Assembly (NCBI GenBank): GCA_031276875.1
Contig: JAISMG010000024.1
Span: 1 to 57,091 of the forward strand
DNA: 57,091 nt
DNA from: Candidatus Peribacteria bacterium
GTDB taxonomy: Bacteria; Patescibacteriota; Gracilibacteria; Absconditabacterales; Absconditicoccaceae
Reading direction: 5' to 3'
Within the stretch, counting starts at the first letter, position 1, and each line of letters opens with the position of its first letter. The notes below the pieces were generated by a model. That model did no database searches. It worked only from the letters and a program-made list of their open reading frames with translations, and was not told the DNA's origin. Below are positions 6,779 through 41,577 of the stretch, piece by piece. The translations under genes were made by a program, and so were the position numbers.

Positions 6779-7198
6779 ATGACACGTCATCTCATTTCTT
6801 CTCCTGAAGCAATGCAAGCATTTGGAGCAAGTCTTGCCAAAACTCACCCTATCATCCTGCTGACCGGAGACCTTGGAGCGGGAAAAACTACCTTTGCCAA
6901 AGGATTTGCACAAGCTCTTGGTATCAATCCCTCCCAAGTCCAAAGTCCCACCTATACTTATCTCAATAGCTATGACAATCTTTTGCTCCATATCGATATG
7001 TACAGATTGGAAGATTTTCATCAAGTGGTAGAAAAAGGCATTCTCGACCAAATGAATGCATACGATTATGTTCTCATTGAACGACCCAAACGGATTGAAC
7101 AGCTTCCTTTCACCACGTATATTCATCTCACTATCAAAAAAACCTGACCACAAGAGAGAGAAATCACCCTTTCCCCTATCACGACTCCACAACAATAA
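6779..7198 (+). CDS. tsaE: tRNA threonylcarbamoyladenosine biosynthesis ATPase TsaE
   Basis: The 139-aa product is the ATPase partner of TsaB/TsaD in t6A37 modification of ANN-decoding tRNAs. The P-loop GDLGAGKTTFAKG (about residues 31-43) is the family hallmark. It is followed by SPTYTYLNSY, the HIDMYRLED segment and DYVLIERPKRI, matching the usual order of TsaE. Length fits (about 140-155). ATG 6779 was chosen over an in-frame start 60 nt upstream because the extra 20 residues are hydrophobic and Phe-rich and match no family sequence, and because ATG 6779 follows a pyrimidine tract as other starts here do. One TGA (Gly) lies near the C-terminus before the TAA. No TsaB or TsaD is adjacent. 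Confidence 0.93.
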
Positions 7199-7200
7199 GT

Positions 7201-7247
7201 TTAGTGTATGTTTTTAGAGATTAATTTTCAAGCAAAATGCACTAAAG
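7201..7247. other. Imperfect hairpin after tsaE, similar to the 24987-25022 hairpin
   Basis: TTTAGTG (7201-7207) pairs with CACTAAA (7241-7247), and the adjoining T-rich and A-rich stretches extend the stem imperfectly. The context AAGCAAAATGCACTAAA is nearly the same as ACAAAATGCACCAAA at 24985-25000. It may be a terminator of tsaE or the remnant of the same element end; the sequence does not settle which. Confidence 0.4.
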
Positions 7248-7333
7248 GGATAATCAAGTAACGTAAAAAGCGAATAACGAACGTTATAGTTTGATATAAA
7301 AAATTTTTTATCTGAAGATTTTTTTGATTTTTG

Positions 7334-7570
7334 ATTTGCAATTGCTACTAAAATTTATACATTCAAGTTGCTGTTATACAATGTAAATCCATAACGGAAT
7401 ATTTCCGCGGTTTTAGGTATAGAATTTTGGAGTATAATCTGGGCAAACGACATCATAGTCGTGGATACTTCGGGTTGTTTCTTTATCTGTTAAAGTTGCG
7501 ATTATGTCGTTATAGCACCACGTCTATGGTGTCTTTTTATTTTCTGAAAAGGCATTAAGTGGTACTTTTA
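7334..7570 (+). ncRNA. Structured non-coding element, copy 1 of a tandem pair
   Basis: Non-coding stretch sharing ordered blocks with a second copy about 275 bp downstream: TTGCAATTG, TATACATTCAAGTTGCT (7356-7372), ACGACATCAT (7447-7456) and AGCACCACG..TATGGTGTCTTTTT (7514-7536). The ACGAC/GTCGT stem is at 7447-7462. Its 3' end can form either CACCA/TGGTG followed by TCTTTTT, a terminator, or a longer arm pairing AGCACCAC (7514-7521) with GTGGTACT (7559-7566) and TGTCTTTT with AAAAGGCA. No open frame spans it. It is unassigned: it could be an sRNA, a leader or a riboswitch-like attenuator. Confidence 0.5.
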
Positions 7571-7612
7571 TCTTGTATGATGTTGTAATGCCATCACCAC
7601 CATAAAATTTTC

Positions 7613-7838
7613 AGTTGCAATTGGTTTACAGATGTATACATTCAAGTTGCTAATATATAGTATGCTGCTAGGGTGAGTAACCTGAACCAGTTTTAATGAG
7701 ACTTATAATCAGAAAAAACGACATCATTGTTCGTGGATACTCTGATTGTTGTTTTCTTGTTGAGACTGCAGTTACTGTATATTAGCACCACGTTCTATGG
7801 TGTCTTTTTTGTTATAAAAGACATTGAGTGGTGCTTTT
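7613..7838 (+). ncRNA. Structured non-coding element, copy 2, abutting the next gene
   Basis: Second copy of the element described at 7334-7570. Shared blocks are at 7613-7622, 7635-7651, 7718-7727 and 7784-7809. The alternative 3' stems are cleaner here. CACCA/TGGTG is followed by TCTTTTTT. The competing long hairpin is perfect: AGCACCAC (7784-7791) with GTGGTGCT (7828-7835), and inside it TGTCTTTT with AAAAGACA. In copy 1 the inner stem keeps pairing through a G-U wobble. The element ends about 15-20 nt before the start of the next gene, so control of that gene is possible. Confidence 0.5.
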
Positions 7839-7858
7839 ATACTTTTCTCTTTATGACA

Positions 7859-8785
7859 ATGAAAAAAACAACTCTTTTTCACCATTTCAAACAATGGTGT
7901 GTAAAAATGTCTGTCAGTAGCGTTATTTTTGTGTCTGTAGTGATTTTAGGAGGTGCGATTATTACTTGGGCTTTGCCCTCGTCGCTTGATGAAGTCACTT
8001 CACAAGCAGAACCAGCAAATCAACTCACAGCAGAAAAACGAAATTATTTGGTAGCTCAAGTGAAACTACATAATCTTGTTATTGGGTCAGGATTAGAAAG
8101 AGCTGACAATCATTTGCTTACTATTATTGATCTGTTACATAATAGAGATGAAAGCCAACAAACTATACTTGCAATGAATGAAGAAATGATAACTTTACTA
8201 AGAACCAATAATGAATTATTAGCAATGCTTTCTGAGAAATTAGAAGGAGGGGGAAATGGATGAAATGGTGAAGATTGTGAAGAAAATGGAACCTGTGAAG
8301 ATGGACAACAACCAACTCCTGAACCAGAAGAGACAGAGGAGGAAACAGAATATTGAACAGTTGCTGTTAGTAATAATGGCAGTACTACAAAGATAGTGGC
8401 TTGTGAAACTACTAACTTTGCGTGTAAAACTTATAGTATGAATAATACTTATAATGGTTGATCAACTGTAACTAGTACTGGAGGAGTATCTGTAGTGAAA
8501 AATGAATATAATATAGCTGTATGTAAAGGGACCTCTTGTATAATTGGAGCAGGTGGAAAATGAGGTGGAGTAGCATATTCTGATTGAACTGTTGTAGTTG
8601 CTGGAACCTATGATAATACTACAAGGATAGTGGCTTGTGAAACTACTAACTTTGCGTGTAAAACTTATAGTATGAATAATAGTTATAATGGTTCATCCAC
8701 TGTAACAGCACAAGCTGGTGGAACAGTTACTGTAACTAATCAACAAACAGTAGCAGTATGTAAAAAGACCACTTGTTCAATTTAA
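7859..8785 (+). CDS. Membrane-anchored repeat protein
   Basis: The 308-aa product has a basic N-terminus, one hydrophobic segment (about residues 17-36) and then an extracellular part. That part has a helical stretch (residues 60-130, LLHNRDESQQ..LLAMLSEKL), a Gly/Asn linker, an acidic Pro/Glu/Thr stretch, and two near-identical repeats containing VACETTNFACKTYSMNN (encoded at about 8396-8445 and 8630-8680). Each repeat carries paired Cys, fitting disulfide-stabilised surface modules. Several TGA codons encode Gly in the linkers. ATG 7853 two codons upstream is an equally possible start; I chose ACAATGAAA by similarity to the 22699 gene, which begins the same way. The function is unknown; a surface or adhesin-like role is inferred. 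Confidence 0.75.
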
Positions 8786-41167: not shown

Positions 41168-41577
41168 ATGAATATTTTAAAGAAATCAATTAAAAGTGGT
41201 TTCAAAACTGGTCAAAATTTTGCATTTAAAATTTTTTGGGGTACAATAAAAAAGTTTTATCTTTTACCCAAAACTAGCGATGTATTTTCTTTCTACTTCT
41301 TAATCTGGTCTGCATTGTTCTTTTTATGCAACATTCGCTTTCCGGAGAACAAGAAATGCAATTCCACGGAGAAATTGCAAACGACTCGTCAACATCCAAT
41401 TAACAGGAGATGAACAAGGGCTGAGTATACACAGACTATGATGTCGTTTATACAGATTATTTTAAGTTTACTATTAAAATCGCTCTGGAATACTCCGTCG
41501 CAGATTTGTATTAGGACAATTTCAATGTACCTATTTCAAATTCAATTGCAAATGAAAATACAAAAAAACACCACCTA
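41168..41577 (+). pseudogene. Possible decayed small membrane protein gene
   Basis: With TGA read through, one frame stays open from ATG 41168 to TAG 41575-41577. It has a basic N-terminus (MNILKKSIKSGFKTG) and a hydrophobic segment (FSFYFLIWSALFFLCN). Beyond about 41320 another frame looks more protein-like (MQHSLSGEQEMQFHGEIAN, later GVYTDYDVVYTDYFKFTIKIALEYSVADLY), interrupted by TAA and TAG. This mixture suggests a frameshifted remnant of a membrane or secreted protein rather than an intact gene. No family recognised. Confidence 0.35.

Follow-up and report, generated by a model that had tools for sequence, protein, structure and literature searches.

The two similar segments at positions 7336-7566 and 7615-7835 of the window, the whole 57,091-nucleotide stretch of DNA analysed here, are copies of an undescribed bacterial RNA family that is transcribed immediately before accessory genes. 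The family has at least 29 intact members; this genome carries 15, and the others come from 12 further genomes in the same order. In 29 of 29 members, the apical loop of a long hairpin is complementary to the RNA's own terminator over 14-21 bp. This means that the tip of the hairpin matches the RNA's own stop signal, thus the RNA looks built to switch the following gene on or off. We propose that each segment is probably a self-contained transcription attenuator whose apical loop serves as a built-in antiterminator in competition with the terminator hairpin T1, although no transcript data are at hand.

From start to start, the two segments are offset by 279 bp in the 5' block and by 271 bp in the middle block and the 3' block. 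Their RNA folds are more stable than those of dinucleotide shuffles (z -2.6 and -3.7), which bears out the preliminary description of two alike segments with conserved blocks. BLAST within the genome found about 12 matches, full and partial, and two further copies lie in a genome of the same genus. Three covariance models of increasing breadth (R1, R2 and R3) were used, and this search, which the preliminary description had suggested as a check, returned the 29 intact members from 13 of the 49 genomes of the order, spread over six genera; several genomes carry one copy only. Outside the order, a shallow scan of 353 genomes of the class, 31 of which were searched more deeply, yielded only weak matches. 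The weak matches in genomes G217, G320 and G340 were rejected: those in G217 and G320 are short terminator-like stretches, and the one in G340 apparently falls within coding sequence. A loose DNA pattern of the terminator, run against genome and viral contigs, matches in unrelated bacteria and viruses; as a specificity check, R3 was applied to 45 loci with such a chance copy, and none scored below E 0.1. Relatives of the downstream surface protein were not found in viral contigs. No family of Rfam 15 matches the window copies or other members at the gathering threshold, relaxed thresholds gave chance-level scores only, and a limited literature search found no published description of such a regulatory RNA in this lineage. 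The suggestion of an unnamed structured tandem leader or RNA family is thus upheld by the covariance models, the covariation described below, the homologs in six genera and the absence of an Rfam match.

All members share one module order: a promoter, an RNA of 137-181 nt folded as a long bent hairpin (P1-P4), a weak terminator T1 with its T run, and a gene start. The promoter pattern TTGnnn-N16-TAnnnT is found at -32/-33 relative to the start of the RNA in 28 of 29 members, mostly with a 16 nt spacer, and the RNA starts about 4 nt past the -10 box. In copy 1 (forward strand, as are all features of both copies), the promoter spans 7336-7363, with the -35 box TTGCAA at 7336-7341, a 16 nt spacer and the -10 box TACATT at 7358-7363; in copy 2 it spans 7615-7642 (TTGCAA 7615-7620, TACATT 7637-7642). 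The 5' conserved block TTGCAATT...TACATT had been taken for part of the RNA. It is a promoter instead, because the motif TTGCAAT-N15-TAnAnT is enriched in the genome, with 45 sites versus 2 for a reversed-pattern control. The same motif looks like a general housekeeping promoter of this organism.

The RNA of copy 1 (w1) runs from the 5' strand of P1 to the T run at 7368-7538 and matches R1 with 114 bits (alignments A5 and A6); its minimum-energy fold is non-canonical, and its stems are preserved partly through G-U pairs. The RNA of copy 2 (w2) occupies 7647-7809, with the T run ending at 7809/7810, and is supported by an R1 match of 136.8 bits, its minimum-energy fold and covariation. P1 is the main structure, a long-range stem of about 9-14 bp in nearly every member, in which the 5' nucleotides of the RNA (nt 4-16) pair with those directly preceding the terminator. 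It is followed by a hinge, either a one-sided bulge or a small 5'-side hairpin, then by P3 and P4, jointly about 20-26 bp, and the apical loop. In copy 2, P1 is 7650-7662/7773-7785, P3 is 7689-7701/7755-7767 and P4 is 7705-7713/7741-7749. The hairpin noticed earlier near the ACGACATCAT block is real, with ACGACATCAT forming the tip of this long hairpin.

Lack of covariation among homologs would have refuted a structured RNA. In an alignment of 22 sequences, fitted to the model, 85.5% of cells pair, and both sides have changed in 51 of 58 pairs. The alignment scores 0.585 for covariation, versus 0.189 for shuffled alignments and 0.08-0.13 with slid partners, and none of 500 shuffles scored as high. 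Indeed, the first MAFFT alignment of nine copies already held 27 doubly changed pairs, again unmatched in 500 shuffles. Outside the apical loop and the terminator, almost no nucleotide is conserved (A6).

Directly after P1 stands T1, a stem of 5-6 bp (mean -8.0 kcal/mol). The CACCA/TGGTG terminator with a T run, recognized beforehand, is present in both copies: in copy 1 at 7516-7538 (CACCA 7516-7520, TGGTG 7527-7531, T run 7534-7538) and in copy 2 at 7786-7810 (CACCA 7786-7790, TGGTG 7798-7802, T run 7805-7810). Across the alignment, 98% of cells keep the T1 stem paired, and its last pair has changed in a compensatory manner; thus, T1 appears to be selected as a hairpin in its own right. About 11 of the 29 members have a second arm, T2. 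In copy 2 it lies at 7816-7840, with AAAAGACA at 7816-7823 and GTGGTGCT at 7828-7835 followed by TTTTAT, and T1 plus 45 nt folds to -20.7 kcal/mol versus -6.5 for T1 alone. The alternative long hairpin described before, pairing AGCACCAC with GTGGTGCT and TGTCTTTT with AAAAGACA, pairs exactly in copy 2. The inner stem of copy 1 is held by a G-U pair as claimed, but its outer stem has a C.A mismatch between AGCACCAC and the optional second arm GTGGTACT (7559-7566). T2 is limited to about 11 of 29 members; the competing partner universal to the family is the apical loop and not T2.

The complementarity of the apical loop is the new element of this analysis. In 29 of 29 members, the best terminator-complementary site in the whole RNA is the apex, at 45-57% of the length, with energies of -16.7 to -26.9 kcal/mol; the runner-up site is much weaker. 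The apical loop of copy 1, GACATCATAGTCGTGG (7449-7464), forms a terminator duplex of -25.2 kcal/mol, the next best site reaching -8.0; that of copy 2, GACATCATTGTTCGTGG (7720-7736), gives -20.5, the next best site -8.7. As an example from the conserved apical block, GACATCATAnnnCGTGG complements the terminator sequence CCACGnnnTATGGTGTC. Loop and terminator vary together across members: GGCAC/GGCAT occurs with GGTGCC, CTCTAnnnTGTGG with CCACAnnnTAGGG, TGCGG with CCGCA and TTTGG with CCAGA. Among 23 distinct terminators, the own pairing averages -24.4 kcal/mol versus -15.0 when partners are swapped, the own partner is best in 17 of the 23 types, and the observed sum was not attained in any of 100,000 permutations. 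Shared ancestry within subtypes inflates this contrast, yet divergent single-copy members also prefer their own partner, and all seven members that came to light only later have the complementarity. The pseudoknot sum minus the full minimum free energy averages -5.3 kcal/mol before any pseudoknot penalty, which puts the two states close together in energy, as one would expect of a switch. Considering that the loop match and the T1 stem are both kept, selection appears to maintain two uses of one sequence that exclude each other. An attenuator calls for an alternative pairing that is mutually exclusive with the terminator; this is met in 29 of 29 members, and the partners coevolve.

It also calls for a promoter, a leader RNA, a terminator hairpin with a T run and a nearby gene start, and these are met as well. 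In 27 of 27 members without another copy behind them, an ORF starts 12-67 nt past the T run, the gap being usually 12-25 nt, and 42-67 nt with T2 or a longer spacer. We judged a separate downstream promoter unlikely, as many gaps are only 12-25 nt and by eye no consistent promoter or -10 motif lies between the T run and the start codon. Behind copy 2, the region of interest reaches the start codon of a gene at 7853-8785 (+, ATG at 7853 or 7859, table 25), whose product has an N-terminal hydrophobic segment of the surface or secreted type and no Pfam match; with table 25, the window genes stay open, which agrees with the Absconditabacteria/Gracilibacteria placement in the preliminary description. 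No gene of its own follows copy 1, which may be a duplicate in decay or the source of a trans-acting RNA. The spacer TTGTATGATGTTATAATGCCATCACCACCATAAAATTTTCA (window 7567-7614) is conserved between tandem copies at three loci, including L003 and L004, which suggests that recombination duplicated a unit of roughly 275 bp. A degenerate third copy at about 41348-41551 on the minus strand, matched by the models at 41352-41525 and not counted among the 15 intact ones, retains the promoter and the 5' half up to the apical block; its 3' half and terminator are missing.

The downstream genes are diverse and accessory, without a common pathway. The position upstream of a surface protein gene, pointed out in the preliminary description, holds here, but the family also precedes methylases, an SNF2 helicase and a dCTP deaminase. 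The products include surface or secreted proteins with an N-terminal hydrophobic segment, a dCTP deaminase (PF22769), DNA methyltransferases of the D12 class and EcoRI type (PF02086, PF13651), an SNF2 helicase closest to DrmD, NERD-domain and HARE-HTH proteins, a hexapeptide transferase and a zinc-ribbon protein. Several genomes carry the leader ahead of restriction-modification or defence-type genes or a dCTP deaminase (L063 3-1445 (-), L080 1699-2559, L097 1673-2653 and L072 985-1479 (-)). Three surface-protein families with conserved N-termini lie behind leaders (L069, L065, L067 and L099; L058, L098, L070 and L101; L087, L078 and L100), and in this genome two of the three occur with either leader subtype, thus leaders and genes have been reassorted. 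The surface-type product at L067 1-1449 (-) weakly matches the C-terminal domain of phage baseplate Gp10 (PF21939).

From the sequences alone, the promoter, the structure, the terminator, the coevolved complementarity and the gene placement are supported. Comparison likewise supports that transcripts of the conserved promoter would start where P1 has its base and that the leader folds into the long bent hairpin (P1, the one-sided hinge, P3 and P4), with the 5-6 bp terminator and its T run immediately behind. By default, T1 is inferred to form and a stable short RNA of about 165 nt to be released. Alternatively, the apical loop may pair with the emerging terminator through 14-21 bp that take in the loop and 3' arm of the terminator together with some of its 5' arm; T1 could then not form, and polymerase is inferred to read into the gene. 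Where T2 is present, it could give a backup hairpin once T1 is passed. The full duplex of 14-21 bp inside a closed loop of about 24-28 nt probably needs P4 to open, or else a sharp bend that lets the loop dock. The competition between the two states during transcription, and the direction in which it acts, are inferred, and the loop may act in cis or in trans. The balance might be tipped by a ligand, a protein, an ion, polymerase speed or another copy of the RNA. The sign of the effect is not proven, since a duplex of the apical loop extending to the T run could promote termination.

This last point leads to a reading of the opposite sign, in which the loop-terminator duplex, ending at the T run, acts as the terminator stem or reinforces the weak T1. 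The duplex does extend that far, with GAC:GTC in type A, and in type B it enters the T run, and T1 alone has just 5-6 bp; however, the duplex would break T1, whose pairs are kept nearly throughout and compensated once, and we hold this reading to be improbable. It is possible, though we think it unlikely, that the RNA acts in trans on itself, the apical loop of a terminated RNA pairing with the nascent terminator of another copy, at its own gene or a paralog, as expression feedback. The predicted 5' end, paired beside the terminator, has a form typical of stable RNAs, and the stiff stem of roughly 33-56 bp may block contact in cis. Moreover, the gene-less copy 1 carries a loop that fits the copy 2 terminator slightly better (-22.0 kcal/mol) than copy 2's own loop does (-19.4). 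On the other hand, there are single-copy genomes, the own pairing is best in most distinct types, and the hinge recurs where the stem could fold back. Extended further, released short RNAs would act through their apical loops on the terminators of paralogous leaders in a genome-wide RNA-RNA network, with loop subtypes as separate channels over the surface and defence repertoire of an episymbiont; we offer this only as speculation of rather doubtful standing. If true, it would be a natural counterpart to synthetic transcription-activating RNAs.

The leader position, the recurring hinge and the near-balanced states would also suit a riboswitch that has a genuine ligand pocket and uses the loop-terminator contact as its expression platform. 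The scant nucleotide conservation outside the apical loop and terminator leaves no obvious pocket, however, and the downstream genes lack a common pathway, which makes a riboswitch very unlikely. Finally, the hairpin might act as DNA, in a dispersed MITE-like mobile element or a recombination site, as the 15 intact copies in one genome, the tandem arrays with a conserved spacer and the partial copies could suggest. A repeat search of 6900-8300 listed no inverted repeat joining both ends of a segment. The promoter and T1 are fixed, the stems covary, other genera hold single copies, and the family sits before the start codons of unrelated genes; we find this origin scarcely credible. The insertion element named beforehand as a possible refutation is contradicted by the covariation, the fixed promoter and the unrelated genes, and we rejected that reading on covariation and gene-start placement.

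These RNAs add a covariation-supported family in a lineage with a recoded UGA codon. At its hairpin tip, the leader bears the complement of almost its entire terminator, which gives a direct mutational prediction, and the members offer a natural set of coevolved loop-terminator pairs. They also outline a candidate regulon of surface proteins, type II methyltransferases, a DrmD-like helicase and a dCTP deaminase, whose co-regulation was unsuspected in these small-genome, presumably host-dependent bacteria.

Several known RNAs share parts of this design. 6S RNA is a hairpin of about 170 nt with paired ends and its own promoter; this family, in contrast, lies directly before gene starts and has many divergent paralogs. 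We rejected a 6S-like global RNA on copy number, location and the absence of an Rfam match; the Rfam models of 6S RNA, the T-box and the cobalamin riboswitch all gave no match. T-box and amino-acid attenuators place a leader with a mutually exclusive terminator and antiterminator before a gene, whereas the genes downstream of this family are not amino-acid genes. In synthetic STAR activators, RNA-RNA pairing in the leader sets read-through at an intrinsic terminator, with the antisense RNA coming from a separate transcript. Pairing in the leader likewise sets read-through at an intrinsic terminator in pT181-type antisense attenuators, which make loop-first contact (PMC3753616). The antisense strand of pT181 comes from a separate transcript, whereas here the complementary loop lies within the same leader. 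In the corrinoid (cobalamin) riboswitch of the activating cobT type, with its L5-L13 kissing loop, the kissed hairpin excludes the terminator (PMC10653944). As in that riboswitch, an upstream loop of our family pairs with the expression-platform hairpin; the corrinoid loop-loop contact, however, is 3-5 bp and needs a conserved aptamer, versus 14-21 bp against the terminator itself here. To our knowledge, neither corrinoid riboswitches nor pT181 are known to use a loop of the same leader complementary to nearly the whole terminator. We class the RNAs described here as a new family and a variant of the attenuator kind.
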